From positions 124,001 to 188,000 of the forward strand of contig NZ_ARQE01000002.1 in assembly GCF_000382705.1 (NCBI RefSeq): a DNA stretch of 64,000 nucleotides, in the 5' to 3' direction. Source of the DNA: Aureimonas ureilytica DSM 18598 = NBRC 106430 (GTDB taxonomy: Bacteria; Pseudomonadota; Alphaproteobacteria; Rhizobiales; Rhizobiaceae). The position numbers were made by a program, and so were the translations under genes. How positions within the stretch are numbered: the first letter of the stretch is position 1; every line of letters starts with the position of its first letter. Below are positions 5,884 through 31,622 of the stretch, piece after piece. Below the pieces are notes generated by a model that worked only from the letters and a program-made list of their open reading frames with translations, was not told the origin of the DNA and did not search any database.

Positions 5884-7335
5884 ATGGCCGACAGCTACGA
5901 CATTCTCATCATCGGCGGCGGTCCGGGCGGCTATGTCGCGGCGATCCGCGCCGCGCAGCTCGGCTTCAAGACCGCCGTGGTGGAGCGGGAGCACATGGGC
6001 GGCATCTGCCTCAACTGGGGCTGCATCCCGACCAAGGCGTTGCTGCGCTCGGCCGAAATCTTCCACTATGCCGAACATGGCGAGAGCTACGGGCTGAAGA
6101 TCGAGAAGCCGAGCTTCGACATCGGCGCCGTGGTGAAGCGCTCGCGCGGTGTGTCGGCGCAGCTGAACGGCGGCGTCGCGATGCTGATGAAGAAGAACAA
6201 GATCGACATCATCTGGGGCCAGGCCAAGATCACCAAGGCCGGGAAGGGCGCTCCGGTGGAAGTCGAGGTCGGTCCGTCGACCAAGCCCGCCGTTCAGCCG
6301 CAGAACCCGGTTCCCAAGAACGCGCTCGGCCACGGCACCTACAAGGCCAAGCACGTGATCGTCGCCACGGGCGCGCGTCCGCGCGTGCTGCCCGGCATCG
6401 AGCCGGATGGGGACCGCATCTGGACCTATTTCGAGGCGATGAAGCCGGCCTCCATGCCGAAGTCGCTGATCGTCATGGGCTCGGGCGCGATCGGCATCGA
6501 GTTCGCGTCCTTCTACCGCACGATGGGCGCCGAGGTGACGGTGGTCGAACTCCTGCCGCAGATCCTGCCCGTGGAGGATGCGGAAGTCGCCGCCGTCGCG
6601 CGCAAGCAGTTCGAAAAGCAGGGCATGAAGATCTTGTCGGACGCCAAGGTCGCCAAGGTCGCCAAGACCGGCGCGGGCGTCGAGGTGACGGTGGAGCAGG
6701 GCGGCAAGACCGAAGTGCTGAAGGCCGAGCGTCTGATTTCGGCGGTCGGCGTGCAGGGCAACACCGAAGGTCTCAATCTCGAAGGCGTCGGCGTCGCGAT
6801 CGAGCGCGGCATCGTCAAGATCGACGCGGTCGGCCGCACCAATGTCGAGGGCATCTATGCGATCGGCGATGTCGCCGGGGCGCCGATGCTGGCGCACAAG
6901 GCCGAGCACGAAGGCACGATCTGCGTCGAGGCGATCAAGGGCCTCCATGTTCACCCGATGAAGCGCGAGCAGATCCCCGGCTGCACCTACTGCCAGCCGC
7001 AGGTCGCCTCGGTCGGCTTGACGGAAGCGAAAGCCAAGGAGAGCGGACGCGAGATCAAGGTCGGCCGCTTCCGCTTCGTCGCCAACGGCAAGGCGATCGC
7101 GCTCGGCGAGCCCGACGGTCTCGTGAAGACGATCTTCGACGCCAAGACCGGCGAGCTCCTCGGCGCTCACATGGTCGGTGCGGAAGTCACCGAACTGATC
7201 CAGGGCTTTGTGGTCGCGATGGGTCTGGAAACCACGGAAGAGGACCTGATGCACACGGTCTTCCCGCATCCGACCCTGTCCGAAATGATGCACGAAAGCG
7301 TTCTCGACGCCTACGGCCGCGTCATTCACATGTAA
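5884..7335 (+). CDS. lpdA: Dihydrolipoyl dehydrogenase (E3)
   Basis: This 483-residue flavoprotein reoxidises the dihydrolipoyl arm of E2 with NAD+. The FAD-binding glycine motif is GGGPGGYVAA at residues 9-18. The redox-active disulfide is in GGICLNWGCIPTKALL, the NAD-binding fold starts at MGSGAIGIEFA, and the second FAD segment is YAIGDVAGAPMLAHKA. The C-terminal dimer-interface block FPHPTLSEMMHES carries the active-site histidine of the partner chain. There is no N-terminal lipoyl domain, unlike some bacterial E3 proteins. It closes the pyruvate dehydrogenase group. Confidence 0.97.
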   Translation: MADSYDILIIGGGPGGYVAAIRAAQLGFKTAVVEREHMGGICLNWGCIPTKALLRSAEIFHYAEHGESYGLKIEKPSFDIGAVVKRSRGVSAQLNGGVAMLMKKNKIDIIWGQAKITKAGKGAPVEVEVGPSTKPAVQPQNPVPKNALGHGTYKAKHVIVATGARPRVLPGIEPDGDRIWTYFEAMKPASMPKSLIVMGSGAIGIEFASFYRTMGAEVTVVELLPQILPVEDAEVAAVARKQFEKQGMKILSDAKVAKVAKTGAGVEVTVEQGGKTEVLKAERLISAVGVQGNTEGLNLEGVGVAIERGIVKIDAVGRTNVEGIYAIGDVAGAPMLAHKAEHEGTICVEAIKGLHVHPMKREQIPGCTYCQPQVASVGLTEAKAKESGREIKVGRFRFVANGKAIALGEPDGLVKTIFDAKTGELLGAHMVGAEVTELIQGFVVAMGLETTEEDLMHTVFPHPTLSEMMHESVLDAYGRVIHM

Positions 7336-20222: not shown

Positions 20223-21602
20223 TTGACTGAACACGACAAGGCGTCCGGCTCGAAAGGGCCGATCGAACACAAACAGGTCGCGACCAGGGCAGGGGTCTTC
20301 GTCCCAGTGCTGCGCGAGCGCACGCGCCCGGACGAGGGAAGCGACCTCATCCGCCGCGCCGACGAGGATCGGCTGATCGAGGCCGAAGGTCTGGGCGCGG
20401 CGATCGACCTTCATGTCGTCGCCAAGGGCATCATTCCGGTTTCCAAGCCGCAGCCGGCGACCCTGATCGGCTCCGGCAAGGTCGAGGAATTGAAGGGCCT
20501 CGTCGCGGCGGAAGAGATCGGTCTCGTCATCATCGACCATCCTCTGACGCCCGTTCAGCAGCGCAACCTCGAAAAGGAGCTGAACGCCAAGGTTCTCGAC
20601 CGCACCGGCCTGATCCTCGAAATCTTCGGACGCCGCGCGCGCACGAAGGAAGGGCGGCTTCAGGTCGAGCTCGCGCACTTGAACTACCAGCGCGGCCGTC
20701 TCGTTCGAAGCTGGACGCACCTGGAGCGCCAGCGCGGCGGCGCCGGCTTCCTCGGCGGTCCGGGCGAAACGCAGATCGAGGCGGATCGTCGTCAGCTTCA
20801 GGACAAGATCAAGCGTCTGGAAAAGGAGCTGGAGCAGGTCCGCAAGACCCGCACGCTCCATCGCGCCAAGCGCAAGAAGACTCCGCATCCGGTGATCGCG
20901 CTCGTCGGCTACACGAATGCCGGCAAGTCGACACTGTTCAACAAGGTCACGGGCGCCGACGTCCTCGCCAAGGACCTGCTGTTTGCGACGCTCGACCCGA
21001 CGCTCCGCCGGATCACGCTGCCGCACGGAACGGAAGTGATCATGTCCGACACGGTCGGCTTCATCTCCGACCTGCCGACGCATCTCGTGGCGGCGTTCCG
21101 CGCGACGCTGGAAGAGGTGATCGAGGCCGACATCATCCTGCATGTGCGGGACATGTCCGACCCCGACAGCCTCGCCCAGTCGGCCGACGTGAACAAGATC
21201 CTGAAGGATCTCGACGTCGACGTGGACGACCCCGACCATGTGATCGAGGTCTGGAACAAGATCGATCGTCTGGACGAATCGGCGCGCGCGCATCTCGCAC
21301 AGACGGCCGCGTCGAACGGGAAGGGGCCTTCGATCCATCTGGCCTCCGCCCTGACAGGCGAAGGCGTGGATGGGCTTCTCGCCGAGATCGAACGCAGGAT
21401 TGCCGGCAAGGCGGAAGTCCTGGAACTCGACGTTCCGTCCGACAGCATGAACGTGCTGCCCTGGGTCTACGAGAACTCGATCGTCCGGGCTCGCGAGGAC
21501 CTCGAGGACGGCGGCGTCCATCTGGTTCTGGACGTGACCCGGCAAGCGCGGTCCGATCTTCAGCGCCTGGGCTCGCGCTATCCGAACCTCCGGATCGAAT
21601 AG
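20223..21602 (+). CDS. hflX: Ribosome-associated GTPase HflX
   Basis: A 459-residue GTPase that rescues or splits stalled ribosomes. It has the N-terminal HflX domain (ATLIGSGKVEELK, VIIDHPLTPVQQRNLEK), the glycine-rich GGAGFLGGPGETQIEADRR, a coiled linker and the G domain: GYTNAGKSTLFN, DTVGFISDLP and NKID. The proposed start is a TTG immediately after the hfq stop with GAAGG seven bases upstream. No ATG or GTG is available before the conserved region, so translation is probably coupled to hfq. It ends the long plus-strand run of genes. Confidence 0.93.
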   Translation: MTEHDKASGSKGPIEHKQVATRAGVFVPVLRERTRPDEGSDLIRRADEDRLIEAEGLGAAIDLHVVAKGIIPVSKPQPATLIGSGKVEELKGLVAAEEIGLVIIDHPLTPVQQRNLEKELNAKVLDRTGLILEIFGRRARTKEGRLQVELAHLNYQRGRLVRSWTHLERQRGGAGFLGGPGETQIEADRRQLQDKIKRLEKELEQVRKTRTLHRAKRKKTPHPVIALVGYTNAGKSTLFNKVTGADVLAKDLLFATLDPTLRRITLPHGTEVIMSDTVGFISDLPTHLVAAFRATLEEVIEADIILHVRDMSDPDSLAQSADVNKILKDLDVDVDDPDHVIEVWNKIDRLDESARAHLAQTAASNGKGPSIHLASALTGEGVDGLLAEIERRIAGKAEVLELDVPSDSMNVLPWVYENSIVRAREDLEDGGVHLVLDVTRQARSDLQRLGSRYPNLRIE

Positions 21603-21662: not shown

Positions 21663-22532
21663 CTATTCTGGCTGAGATCGGCCGGACAGCTTGGCGCGCA
21701 CCCAGAGCGCTTCAAGCTCGTCCAGTGACCGTCCGGCCAGTTCGCGGCCGTCCTTTTCCGCTTCGCCCTCCATCAGCCGGAAGCGCTCACGGAACTTGCC
21801 GATCGTTCCGCGCAGGGCGGTGTCGGGATCAATCTCGAAGCGGCGACCAAGATTGACGAGGGTGAACAGGAGATCACCCAATTCGTCGCGCCGTTCCTCT
21901 GCAGTGGCCGCAGCTTCGAACTCGGCCGTCTCTTCCTTCAGCTTCTCGATGATGGGTTCGGGCTCGGTCCAGTCGAATCCGACCACCGCCGCTTTCTCCT
22001 GCAGCTTTCGCGCCTGGGTCAGCGACGGCAAGGCACCCGGCACGGTATCCAAAAGACTGCCGGAGGTCTCGGCGCGCACCGCCCATTCGACGGCCGCCGA
22101 TCCAGCGTCGACGGGCGTATCGAGCCGCTTCTGGCGCGCTTCGGCCCGCTCGCGCTTTTCGTCGGCCTTGATGCGCTCCCAATGTCCCTTGGCCGAGCGC
22201 GCGCTGCGCGCCGACGCGTCGCCGAACACATGCGGATGGCGCCGGATCATCTTGCGCGTGATACCTTCGACGACGTCCTCGAAGGTGAAAAGCCCGGCCT
22301 CGGCGGCCAGCTGGCTGAAATAGACCACCTGCAACAGGAGGTCGCCCAGCTCTTCCTTCAGGTCGTCGGGATCGCGCCGCTCGATTGCGTCCACGACCTC
22401 GAACGTCTCTTCGATCGTATAGGGCACGATCGTGTCGAAGCTCTGCTCGATGTCCCAAGGGCAGCCGGTGGCCGGGTCCCGAAGCGCGCGCATGATCTCG
22501 ACCAGGCGCTGGGTGTCTCGCGAGGGCTGCAT
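21663..22532 (-). CDS. mazG: Nucleoside triphosphate pyrophosphohydrolase MazG
   Basis: A 289-residue two-domain MazG that hydrolyses NTPs and dNTPs to monophosphates. The first domain has CPWDIEQSFDTIVPYTIEETFE with the metal-binding EExxE and later ELGDLLLQVVYFS. The second repeats the pattern with EELGDLLFTLVNLG-like sequence near residue 240. ATG 22532 is chosen over an upstream start at 22556 because GGAG lies six bases before it. It is the first gene of the minus-strand block and is separated from the next gene by the dif-like site. Confidence 0.95.
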   Translation of the reverse strand: MQPSRDTQRLVEIMRALRDPATGCPWDIEQSFDTIVPYTIEETFEVVDAIERRDPDDLKEELGDLLLQVVYFSQLAAEAGLFTFEDVVEGITRKMIRRHPHVFGDASARSARSAKGHWERIKADEKRERAEARQKRLDTPVDAGSAAVEWAVRAETSGSLLDTVPGALPSLTQARKLQEKAAVVGFDWTEPEPIIEKLKEETAEFEAAATAEERRDELGDLLFTLVNLGRRFEIDPDTALRGTIGKFRERFRLMEGEAEKDGRELAGRSLDELEALWVRAKLSGRSQPE

Positions 22533-22693
22533 TCCAAACTCCGTCCAGCAGGGCAAGCGTCTGGTTCCTGACGGCCTCTGTCGGAGCGGTCAAGGGATGA
22601 CGCCGTGCCGGCGTTCGACCGCGCCTTGAAAGGATGATGTCCGCGAACGGTAGGCGAGAGGCATCAACCTCGTACGCCGTGCCTGCTCGAACT

Positions 22694-22721
22694 AATACTC
22701 ATAATATGGATTATGGAACAT
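22694..22721. other. Candidate dif site (XerC/XerD recombination site)
   Basis: A 28-bp site with dif architecture: an 11-bp left arm AATACTCATAA (22694-22704), a 6-bp centre TATGGA (22705-22710) and an 11-bp right arm TTATGGAACAT (22711-22721). The inner CATAA/TTATG halves are perfect inverted repeats and match the XerC and XerD binding cores of known dif sites. It is the most AT-rich spot of the 270-base mazG-MBL gap, which otherwise holds no gene. Gene direction flips from mainly plus to mainly minus within about 1.1 kb. XerC/XerD genes are not in the window. Confidence 0.7.
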
Positions 22722-22803
22722 GCTTAGAGACGCTGGATATGCTCACGCTAACGCACTGACGCTGATTGGGGGAATGGCGTTGATGGACGCCGACGTCGGA
22801 CGA

Positions 22804-23613
22804 TCAGTCGAGGTCGAACTCGATCCGCATCCCGTCATAGGCCGGCGCAATATGCGCGGGCAGCGATTGGCGGAGCGTCTGATAGTCCAGCGGCGTGTGC
22901 ATATGCGTCAGGATCGCGGTCGGCACGCGCAGGCGTTCGATCCAGGCCAGCGCCTGATCCAGCGAGAGATGGCTCGGATGGCGGCGATATTGCAGAGCGT
23001 CGATGACGAGAAGCGTCGATCCCTCGATCGCCTCCTGCGCGGCCGACGGAAAGTCGCTCACATCGCTGCAATAGGAGATCGGCCCGATCCGAAACCCGAG
23101 CGACAGGATCGAACCGTGTTCCTGCTCGAAGGGTGTGACGTCGATCGCGCCCCCCTTGCCCTCGATCCGGATGGGCTGGAGCGGCGTCAGGGGGTGCCGC
23201 TGGACGATGGGCGGATAGGAACTGCCGGCGGGTGTCTGAAAGCAATAGCCGAACGCCTCCCGGAGACGCTCGAAGGTCGGATCGTCCGCGTAGAGATCGA
23301 TCTGCCGGCCGCTTTCTAGAAAGAAGCCGCGGATGTCGTCGAGCCCGTGGAAATGATCGGCATGCGGATGCGTGACCAGAACCGCGTCGAGGTGCCGGAC
23401 CTTCTCGCGCAGCATCTGCTCGCGGAAATCCGGCCCGCAGTCGATCACCACGACCGTGCGGCCTTCCGGACCGATCCGCTCGACCATGGCGGCGCAGCGG
23501 CCGCGCCGATTTCGAGGCTCGTTCGGATCGCAGGCGCCCCAATCTCCGGTGATGCGCGGCGTTCCTGGCGAACTGCCGCATCCCAGAATCGTCAGGCGCA
23601 GGCGATCGGTCAC
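22804..23613 (-). CDS. MBL-fold metallo-hydrolase (PhnP/RNase Z-like)
   Basis: A 269-residue metallo-beta-lactamase-fold hydrolase. The metal-binding motif is THPHADHFHGLDDIRG near residues 80-95, preceded by the strand VVVIDCGPDFREQM and followed by YCSDVSDFP and the late histidine in ILTHMHTPLDY. CGSSPGTPRI at the start is typical of the group that includes PhnP cyclic phosphodiesterase and tRNase Z. No phn genes are nearby, so the substrate is open. It lies 10 bases downstream of tatD and is likely the last gene of the tmk-holB-metG-tatD transcript. Confidence 0.88.
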   Translation of the reverse strand: MTDRLRLTILGCGSSPGTPRITGDWGACDPNEPRNRRGRCAAMVERIGPEGRTVVVIDCGPDFREQMLREKVRHLDAVLVTHPHADHFHGLDDIRGFFLESGRQIDLYADDPTFERLREAFGYCFQTPAGSSYPPIVQRHPLTPLQPIRIEGKGGAIDVTPFEQEHGSILSLGFRIGPISYCSDVSDFPSAAQEAIEGSTLLVIDALQYRRHPSHLSLDQALAWIERLRVPTAILTHMHTPLDYQTLRQSLPAHIAPAYDGMRIEFDLD

Positions 23614-24421: not shown

Positions 24422-25968
24422 CACGCCGCTCCCGAATCCGCCTCGACGAAGCGCGGGAAGACGCCAGTGGGTGCCGGGAGAACGTGGTTCGCGAGAAGCA
24501 CCGTACCCTGATCGAGCGCGGAGAAACTGCGCTCTTCCACGCCGACGCCGAGAAGGTCGAGGAGCTTGCCGCAGGAGTCCGGCATGACCGGTTGCAGGAG
24601 GATCGCGACGCGGCGCACGACTTCCGCCGTCACATAGAGAACGGTGCCCATGCGAGCCGGATCGGTCTTGCGCAGGACCCACGGTTCCTGAGCCGCGAAA
24701 TAGCGGTTCGTTTCCGAAACCGTCGCGACCACTGTGGCGAGGAACGCGTGGAGCTCCTGGCGGTCGATCGCCGCGCGGCACTGCTGGAGAAGCTGGCCGC
24801 TCTGGTCGAGAATCGCATGATCCGCCTCGGTGAACTCGCCCGGCTCGGGCACCCTGCCCTCGCAGTTCTTCGCGATCATCGACAGCGAGCGCTGCGCCAG
24901 ATTGCCGAGATCGTTGGCGAGCTCGGAATTCATGCGAGCGACGATCGCCTCGTGCGAATAATTGCCGTCCTGGCCGAACGGCACTTCGCGCAGGAGGAAG
25001 TAGCGGAACGGGTCGAGGCCGTAGGTGTCCACGAGCGCGATCGGATCGATCACGTTGCCGACCGACTTCGACATTTTCTCACCACGGTTGAACAGGAACC
25101 CGTGGACGAAGATGCGCTTGGGGAGATCGATGCCGGCCGACATCAGGAAGGCCGGCCAGTACACCGCATGGAAGCGCACGATGTCCTTGCCGATCACGTG
25201 AAGATCGGCCGGCCAGAAGCGGCTTCGCTCGCCGGCTTCGGGATAGCCCGTCGCGGTCAGGTAATTGGTGAGCGCGTCCACCCAGACATACATGACGTGG
25301 CGCTCGTCGCCTGGGACCGGAATGCCCCAGTCGAACGTCGTTCGCGAGATCGACAGATCGCGCAGTCCCGACTTCACGAAGGACACGATCTCGTTGCGGC
25401 GTTCGGTCGGCGCGATGAAGTCCGGATTCGCGTCGTAATGCGCGAGCAGCCGCTCGCCGAAATTGGAGAGGCGGAAGAAATAGCTTTCCTCCTCGACCCA
25501 TTCGACCGGCGTGCCCTGCGGGCCCAAACGCTTGCCGTCGTCGGTGAGGCGCGTCTCGTCCTCGGCGTAATAGGCCTCGTCCCGCACCGAGTACCACCCG
25601 GCATAGGAGCTTTTGTAGATGTCGCCGGCCTCCACCATCCGCTGCCAGATCGCCTGGCTCGCCTTGCGATGGCGCTCTTCCGTGGTGCGGATGAAGTCGT
25701 CGTTGGAGCTTCCGACGCGGCGGCCCATCTCCTGGAATTCGCCGGAATTACGCGAGGCCAGTTCGATCGGTTCGATCCCGAGGTTTCGGGCCGTCTGGAG
25801 CATCTTGATGCCGTGCTCGTCGGTTCCGGTCAGGAACAGGACGTCATACCCATCGAGGCGCTTAAAACGGGCGATCGTGTCGGTCGCGATCAGCTCGTAG
25901 GCGTGCCCGATATGCGGGCGACCGTTGGGGTAGGAGATCGCGGTGGTCAGATAGAAGGTCTCAGCCAT
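24421..25968 (-). CDS. metG: Methionyl-tRNA synthetase
   Basis: A class I aminoacyl-tRNA synthetase of 515 residues that charges tRNA-Met. The HIGH motif is in [11 protein letters not shown] at residues 15-25 and KMSKS is in [11 protein letters not shown] near residue 300. The length shows no C-terminal tRNA-binding appendix. The connective-peptide region ([17 protein letters not shown]) has no cysteine knuckle, so this is the zinc-free subgroup. It follows holB after 86 bases and is translationally coupled to tatD. Confidence 0.97.
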
Positions 25969-30482: not shown

Positions 30483-31622
30483 TCACGCCGCCTTGCGCGC
30501 GTCCTCGCCCCGCTTCCAGCGCGCGGTGGTGGTCGCGGCGAAGTCGGCGAAGGTGCGGGTCTCGATCGCATGGCGCATCTCGGCCATAAGCTGCTGATAG
30601 TAAGCCAGATTGTTCCAGGTCAGCAGCATACCGGCGAGCGGTTCGTCCGCGCGCACGAGATGATGGAGATAGGCGCGGGCGTAATCGCGCGTCGCCGGGC
30701 AGTCCGACGTCTCGTCCAAAGGTCGCGGGTCCTCCGCGTGACGAGCGTTCTTCAGATTGACGCGGCCATCGCGCGTGAAGGCGAGGCCGTGCCGCCCTGC
30801 CCGCGTCGGCATGACGCAGTCGAACATGTCGATGCCGCGCGCGACCGACTGGAGGATGTCGTCGGGCGTGCCGACACCCATCAGGTAGCGCGGCTTTTCC
30901 GTCGGGAGCGAAGGGAGTGTTTCTTCCAGCGTCGCCAGCATGACCTCCTGTGGCTCGCCGACGGCCAGACCACCGACGGCATAGCCCTTCAGGTTCATCG
31001 CCGCCAAACGCTCGGCCGAGCGAATGCGCAAGTCCGGCTGGTCGCCGCCCTGAACGATGCCGAACATCGCCTTGCCGGGCTGCGTGCCGAAGGCCACCGC
31101 CGAGCGTTCGGCCCAGCGAAGCGACAACTCCATCGCCCGCTCGATCTCGGTCCGGTCCGCGGGCAGACGGATGCACTCGTCGAGCTGCATCTGGATGTCC
31201 GCGTCGAGGAGGCCCTGAATCTCGATCGACCGCTCCGGGCTCAGTTCGTGAACCGACCCGTCGACATGCGACCGGAAGGTCACGCCCTTTTCGCTCATCT
31301 TCCGAAGGCTGGCGAGCGACATGATCTGGAAGCCGCCGGAATCGGTGAGGATCGGATGGGGCCAGCGGGCGAACTCGTGCAGACCGCCGAGACGCGCGAC
31401 GCGCTCGGCGCCCGGCCGCAGCATCAGGTGATAGGTGTTTCCCAGGATGATGTCGGAGCCGAGCTCGCGCACCTGATCGAGATACATGGCCTTCACGGTT
31501 CCCGCCGTGCCGACCGGCATGAAGGCGGGCGTGCGGATCGTGCCGCGCGGCATCGTGATCTCGCCGCGACGCGCCTTGCCGTCCGTCGCGAGGAGCCGAA
31601 ATCCGAACTCGGGTGACGTCAT
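30483..31622 (-). CDS. tgt: tRNA-guanine transglycosylase with degenerate zinc site
   Basis: A 379-residue TIM-barrel enzyme that exchanges guanine 34 for preQ1 in GUN-anticodon tRNAs. Catalytic elements are present: Asp94 in [24 protein letters not shown] and the nucleophile block [17 protein letters not shown]. The zinc-binding CxCxxC of the family reads Ser306-Asp-Cys308-Pro-Ala-Thr311, so two of three cysteine ligands are missing although the flanking DPRPLDE and RAYLHHL align without gaps. Its ATG overlaps the queA stop by four bases, so queA-tgt form one operon. Confidence 0.95.

Follow-up and report, generated by a model that had tools for sequence, protein, structure and literature searches.

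Six Rhizobiales dif sites tabulated in 2009 (Carnoy and Roten, 2009, PMC2731167, Table 1) all have the same layout. Four of them, from Agrobacterium, Mesorhizobium and the two Brucella chromosomes, carry TTATGGAAC; the Bartonella and Bradyrhizobium sites differ. Each chromosome in that account has a distinct site, and divergence of the centre between non-homologous chromosomes has been proposed to prevent their fusion (Val et al., 2008, PMC2533119). A prediction of dif is available for 641 organisms (Kono et al., 2011, PMC3025954). For large replicons in general, an active XerCD site was reported on every enterobacterial replicon above 250 kb that was analysed (Fournes et al., 2025, PMC11724359), and a 2026 study (PMC13342612) reports dif sites mapped on pSymA and pSymB of Sinorhizobium meliloti together with a switch of KOPS at dif on most of the large replicons studied. 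A PMC search of limited coverage retrieved no paper on an Aureimonas dif site and none on a Rhizobiales dif site together with mazG.

The window analysed here is the whole 64,000-bp stretch, corresponding to positions 124001-188000 of contig C2 in a draft assembly of 5,087,183 bp in 44 contigs (genome G000). It contains a 28-bp element which is almost certainly the dif of the main chromosome, that is, the XerC/XerD site for dimer resolution. A preliminary description had put the element forward as a candidate chromosomal dif, and this proposal is supported by likeness to published sites, the sole exact core in the draft, retention of the site among related loci and the switch in KOPS polarity.

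The 28-bp element and its surroundings

The element has a 6-bp centre flanked by two 11-bp arms whose inner cores are ATAA and TTATG, which is the layout of a dif site (Table 1). The sequence, with the CATAA/TTATG cores given in the preliminary description, was confirmed at its position, as was its placement in a gene-free gap between mazG and an MBL-fold hydrolase gene. The element had also been placed at the point where gene direction flips; the flip was found instead between hflX (plus strand, ending at 21602) and mazG (minus strand, ending at 21663), ~1.1 kb to the left, and both neighbours of the gap are encoded on the minus strand. The organism is probably an Aureimonas: among the best 80 of 586 loci, A. 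ureilytica NS365 has the closest named MBL gene (78% identical), and the sites in the genome of that locus coincide in contig and position with those of G020, which belongs to the same genus.

Table 1. Coordinates of the proposed dif site, its flanking features and further dif-like sites (window positions unless a contig is given)
Feature	Position	Strand	Remarks
Proposed dif site, 28 bp	22694..22721	+	AATACTCATAA-TATGGA-TTATGGAACAT
Putative XerC arm	22694..22704	+	AATACTCATAA; arm assigned by analogy with the published alignment
Central hexamer, predicted strand-exchange region	22705..22710	+	TATGGA
Putative XerD arm	22711..22721	+	TTATGGAACAT; identical to the arm of the Brucella melitensis chromosome II dif and of the C8 site of the same genome
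Intergenic gap, 247 bp	22557..22803		between the mazG and MBL-hydrolase frames
mazG (flank)	21663..22556	-	nucleoside triphosphate pyrophosphohydrolase
MBL-fold hydrolase gene (flank)	22804..23613	-	usual neighbour of dif
hflX (flank)	20223..21602	+	
Last GGGNAGGG on the left pointing to dif	21318..21325	+	further left ones at 6241 and 20287
First GGGNAGGG on the right pointing to dif	24852..24859	-	further ones at 30795, 37137, 38209, 40514, 43302 and 59084
Dif-like site, contig C8	C8:32695-32722		AGACATCGTAATATGTCTTATGGAACAT; centre TATGTC; L003 1495-1522
Dif-like site, contig C7	C7:260087-260104	-	TAAGCGTGTAATTTACATTATGGAATTT; centre TTTACA; L187/L188
Dif-like site, contig C35	C35:6697-6715	-	ATATTGCGTAAGATTGCTTATGGAACTT; centre GATTGC; L191; contig of 7,172 bp

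A scoring matrix was derived from the six Rhizobiales sites tabulated by Carnoy and Roten (2009, PMC2731167). The 28-mer scored 35.2, the next-best place in the window (the reverse strand of the element itself excepted) scored 12.0, and the best score over 200 Markov-simulated 64-kb windows was 18.0. The exact core CATAA-N6-TTATG occurs once in the 5,087,183 bases of the draft. When up to one mismatch was allowed, the core was found at 7 places as against 19 for the reversed control; it is thus not over-represented, and the core alone gives no evidence for dif. This absence of over-representation is what speaks for a chance AT-rich match, a reading whose probability is nevertheless negligible in view of the score of the full 28-mer relative to the simulated windows and which is refuted by the conservation of the 28-mer in relatives described below.

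The pattern RTAA-N6-TTATGGAA was found at four places in the draft, on contigs C2, C7, C8 and C35, and its reversed control at none. The C8 site scored 22.9 with the same matrix, as against 35.2 for the window site, and no better dif match was found elsewhere in the whole draft with the patterns used; a better match elsewhere was one of the refuting results named in the preliminary description. The window site is a single copy on the chromosome only if C7 and C35 are non-chromosomal, as is presumed; C8 carries repABC. A gamma-proteobacterial (E. coli-type) dif pattern had no match in the window even at 3 mismatches, because the site carries TTATGGAAC and not TTATGTTAAAT.

KOPS-like polarity and the recombination machinery

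Motif polarity was assessed in a sample of C2 consisting of 1-308 kb complete and four stretches of 20 kb reaching to 528 kb, in a contig of 717,952 bp. The KOPS-like motif GGGNAGGG was distributed 23+/2- to the left of the site and 2+/38- to the right (Fisher P 3.6e-13), which made it the top switch of the 42 one-degenerate octamer families passing the filters (skew >=0.8, minimum of 25 occurrences). Of the 7,793 exact octamer pairs tested, the strongest was GGCGAGGG (P 1.3e-9), followed by GGGCAGGG (P 4.9e-9). The strand switch of GGCGAGGG at dif (25+/4- left, 7+/38- right) is slightly stronger than that of GGGCAGGG, which counts against the dif reading; we know of no KOPS motif with this sequence. 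KOPS-like motifs were thus observed to converge on the window site, as they do on a chromosomal dif. On contig C1, GGGCAGGG turns from mostly minus to mostly plus at ~282-286 kb (among the places listed of 551, all of these on C1). This point of divergence lies ~4-11 kb from parB, parA and rsmG, genes which were named by reading translations, and the parAB-rsmG region is the usual origin neighbourhood in this bacterial class. As the draft is in 44 contigs, the distance from origin to dif cannot be measured.

An extremum of GC skew at the site had been suggested as a check in the preliminary description. Over ~308 kb of C2 the mean GC skew was -0.0057 to the left and -0.0104 to the right, with no difference between the sides (Mann-Whitney P 0.40), and AT and G/T skew did not differ between the two sides either (P 0.33 and 0.43, respectively). 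A skew this flat cannot decide the question and KOPS polarity was therefore taken in its place; the skew result constitutes a failed confirmation, not a refutation. The element marks a probable chromosome terminus where the surrounding GC skew is too flat to reveal one. The suggestion that the locus lies halfway round the chromosome was weakly borne out by complete records of relatives, with percentages counted from record starts, which need not be origins: it agrees with Shinella sp. H4-D48 (1,871,136 of 3,477,580, 54%) and not with Mesorhizobium amorphae (4,125,203 of 6,268,270, 66%) or Jiella pelagia (5,279,040 of 5,577,574, 95%).

Twelve tyrosine-recombinase matches were found in the genome, ten of them weaker than a XerC-like and a XerD-like protein, both with near-whole profile coverage. 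Two scores count against the assignment of these proteins: that of the XerC-like protein on C1 with TIGR02224 (300.1, under the equivalog cut-off of 335.15) and that of the XerD-like protein on C3 with TIGR02225 (327.7 bits, under the equivalog cut-off of 329.6). With NF001399 the latter protein scored 371.7 against a cut-off of 279. A single FtsK_gamma domain was found on C1 (100.4 bits, over the cut-off). Judged by these profiles, the genome encodes predicted XerC, XerD and FtsK-gamma proteins.

We infer that the 28-mer is bound by XerC and XerD and that it undergoes strand exchange in dependence on FtsK. Where an odd number of crossovers had left sister chromosomes as a dimer, FtsK at the septum, loaded on GGGNAGGG with a set orientation, would pump DNA toward dif from both sides, and this pumping would bring two copies of dif together and activate XerD. 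The left arm would be bound by XerC and the right arm by XerD, and XerC would complete the exchange across TATGGA.

Conservation of the site in relatives

Relatives were sampled by a protein search with the MBL hydrolase as the query, and the best 80 of 586 confirmed loci were compared. Of these 80 loci, 76 have a dif-like 28-mer with a score above 30 downstream of the MBL gene. The four loci without a 28-mer beside the MBL gene are L030 (whose stretch is cut off ~0.56 kb beyond the gene), L031, L043 and L059; a matching site occurs elsewhere in each of these genomes. MazG lies within 1.5 kb of one such site in the genomes of L030 and L043 (L206 and L212); in L031 (A. frigidaquae) the site lies ~25 kb away, and in L059 (Limoniibacter) one of three sites lies ~113 kb away, on the same contig by number.

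This conservation bears on the origin of the site. XerCD-dependent integrated mobile elements (IMEX-like) use dif-like sites, and the presence of several dif-like sites in the genome would suit the view that the 28-mer is an attachment site left by such an element, not a resident dif. However, no second site is present in the window, where the next score is 12.0, the same position is filled in 76 of the best 80 loci, and KOPS polarity switches at the 28-mer, so that an attachment site of this kind is highly improbable and a resident dif is preferred.

MazG was found in 23 of the 80 loci, and the site lies between mazG and the MBL gene in all 23; in a further 53 loci the site is present and mazG was not found in the stretch compared. 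The MBL gene is therefore the more constant neighbour, which is partly owed to its choice as the query. The distance from the site to the MBL gene ranges from ~50 bp to ~2.7 kb. Both the variable distance and the 53 loci argue against the 28-mer being a palindromic operator through which mazG or the MBL gene is regulated, as does the occurrence of the exact core once in the draft; its near-palindromic form upstream of mazG is what such an operator would explain, and we regard this reading as very unlikely in comparison with a dif site. The gap beside the MBL gene can serve as an anchor for locating dif in Rhizobiales drafts.

Relative to the MBL gene, 75 of the 76 sites point the same way. At the MBL/mazG site of Aureimonas sp. 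Leaf427 (L075 6147-6174), the reversed orientation scores better (37.7 vs 32.3). In an alignment of 77 sites conservation ends at the 28-mer, with flanking columns at no more than 0.64 bits. Positions 13, 14, 17 and 26, which the search pattern leaves free, carry a single base in 99-100% of the sites; positions 8-11 and 18-25 are wholly or partly set by the pattern and were therefore not counted as conservation. Position 4 of the XerC arm is A in the window site and T in the other 76 of the 77, which counts against it. A plasmid-type Xer site (cer/psi), which would have accessory sequences next to its XerC arm on a small multicopy plasmid, was considered and rejected on the basis of the same 77 aligned sites, which have no strongly conserved flank within 30 bp, and of the large contig and the KOPS convergence.

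Within the genus, RTAA-N6-TTATGGAAC is present in 19 of 21 genomes; it was not found in G009 and G019, which counts against the dif reading. The pattern occurs at 30 places, comprising 15 with the MBL gene within 1.5 kb, four that are the sole site of their genome without the MBL gene, and 11 additional ones. The site has the MBL gene within 1.5 kb in 15 of the 21 genomes, and the hexamer TATGGA recurs in several of the same-genus sites beside that gene. These counts, together with the 76 of 80 loci, answer favourably the check on close relatives set out in the preliminary description. At the family level, RTAA-N6-TTATGGAA was found in 292 of 297 genomes, a figure that includes chance matches as the reversed control also matches many.

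Further dif-like sites and comparison with known systems

Contig C8 (254,624 bp) carries repC, identified by profile, preceded by repA and repB, identified by reading translations (80,017-83,928). Motif GGGNAGGG is distributed 6+/0- to the left of the C8 site, 12-/0+ between 33,592 and 79,959 and 33+/5- between 81,243 and the contig end (left of the site compared with site to repC, Fisher P 0.003). As the motifs diverge from repABC and converge on the site, the C8 site probably serves a second replicon as its dif. On C7 the motif is distributed 13+/1- in the 60 kb to the left of the site, with one minus to the right, a pattern weakly consistent with dif. The C7 centre TTTACA is common to sites in G013 C3 and G020 C95. 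The C35 site shares its hexamer and homologous flanks with G014 C56 (92% over 476 bp). Homology also links G014 C56 to G011 C15 (79% over 3030 bp), with hexamers that differ. For the other sites that share a hexamer (TTTACA, TATGTC), no flank homology was found within ~1.5 kb.

Of the same-genus genomes compared, G013 has the most similar MBL gene, and its site beside the MBL gene and mazG has the same XerC arm and hexamer as the window site. One site is present on each of its contigs of 3743, 489, 436 and 311 kb, with four hexamers, and the motifs converge on all four: within ~40 kb they are distributed 5+/0-, 5+/0-, 6+/1- and 13+/2- to the left and 0+/6-, 1+/9-, 2+/8- and 1+/4- to the right, the MBL/mazG site being the one with 5+/0- and 0+/6- (40 kb per side). 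The exact pattern RTAA-N6-TTATGGAAC was not found on the five smaller contigs (101 to 9 kb). RP-C occurs once in G013 (on C2), and in four of five multi-site relatives (not in G017), so that the sites can each mark a replicon only if some of the replicons are of other types.

Both G000 and G013 have four sites with four different hexamers. The XerC core is GTAA in 7 of the 11 additional same-genus sites and in none of the 19 MBL-linked or sole sites (P 1.6e-4). It is conceivable, if on balance doubtful, that up to four large replicons in Aureimonas share a single XerCD/FtsK set, with the hexamer as a barcode for each dif and a secondary XerC core that is often CGTAA or TGTAA, not CATAA, and that a dif with an unused hexamer lets a repABC plasmid pass ~250-300 kb without fusion to the chromosome. 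The further sites make the idea of one dif and one hexamer per large replicon testable in Aureimonas.

Repeats of hexamers within genomes were counted in 150 rows listed from the 297-genome family search and 12 same-genus rows, with 70 genomes kept, 48 of which have two or more sites; eight small genomes were excluded by hand, six of them with rows (G112, G096, G186, G245, G110 and G298; 1.2-2.4 Mb). Identical centres formed 1 of 130 within-genome pairs (in G207) vs a shuffle mean of 5.1, and 2.5% of shuffles were as low, a comparison confounded by the presence of just one chromosome-type site per genome. This hints at avoidance of hexamer repeats within genomes, against which stand the three identical centres of the excluded G112. 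Reverse-complement pairs numbered 6 vs 2.5 in shuffles, 4% of which were as high, and there may be a slight excess of these. Among the listed rows, G301, G128, G254, G225, G263 and G207 combine a GATAGA site with a second site bearing the reverse complement TCTATC. In G112 (a 1.2-Mb genome) the three identical dif-like sites lie within ~10 kb on C1, two in one orientation and one reversed.

The main text of the 2026 study (PMC13342612) does not contain the word 'Aureimonas', and Fournes et al. (PMC11724359) cover Enterobacteriaceae. The polarity switch of GGGNAGGG at dif is shared with the chromosomes and large extrachromosomal replicons that these two papers describe, a Xer site being present on enterobacterial replicons above 250 kb. 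Compared with the sites tabulated by Carnoy and Roten (2009, PMC2731167), the window site shares with the dif of the Agrobacterium C58 circular chromosome, Mesorhizobium loti and Brucella melitensis chromosome I the 28-bp layout, the ATAA/TTATG cores, the XerD arm TTATGGAAC and an intergenic position, and differs from these three in its centre (TATGGA vs GATATA or GATAGA) and in the outer part of its XerC arm (AATACT). It has an identical XerD arm to the dif of B. melitensis chromosome II (AAATCAGATAATATGTATTATGGAACAT) and a centre one base away (TATGGA vs TATGTA); however, that site belongs to a secondary chromosome, whereas the window contig is read as chromosomal. The proposed dif of the window is therefore a site of a known kind, and the multi-site pattern fits published ideas.
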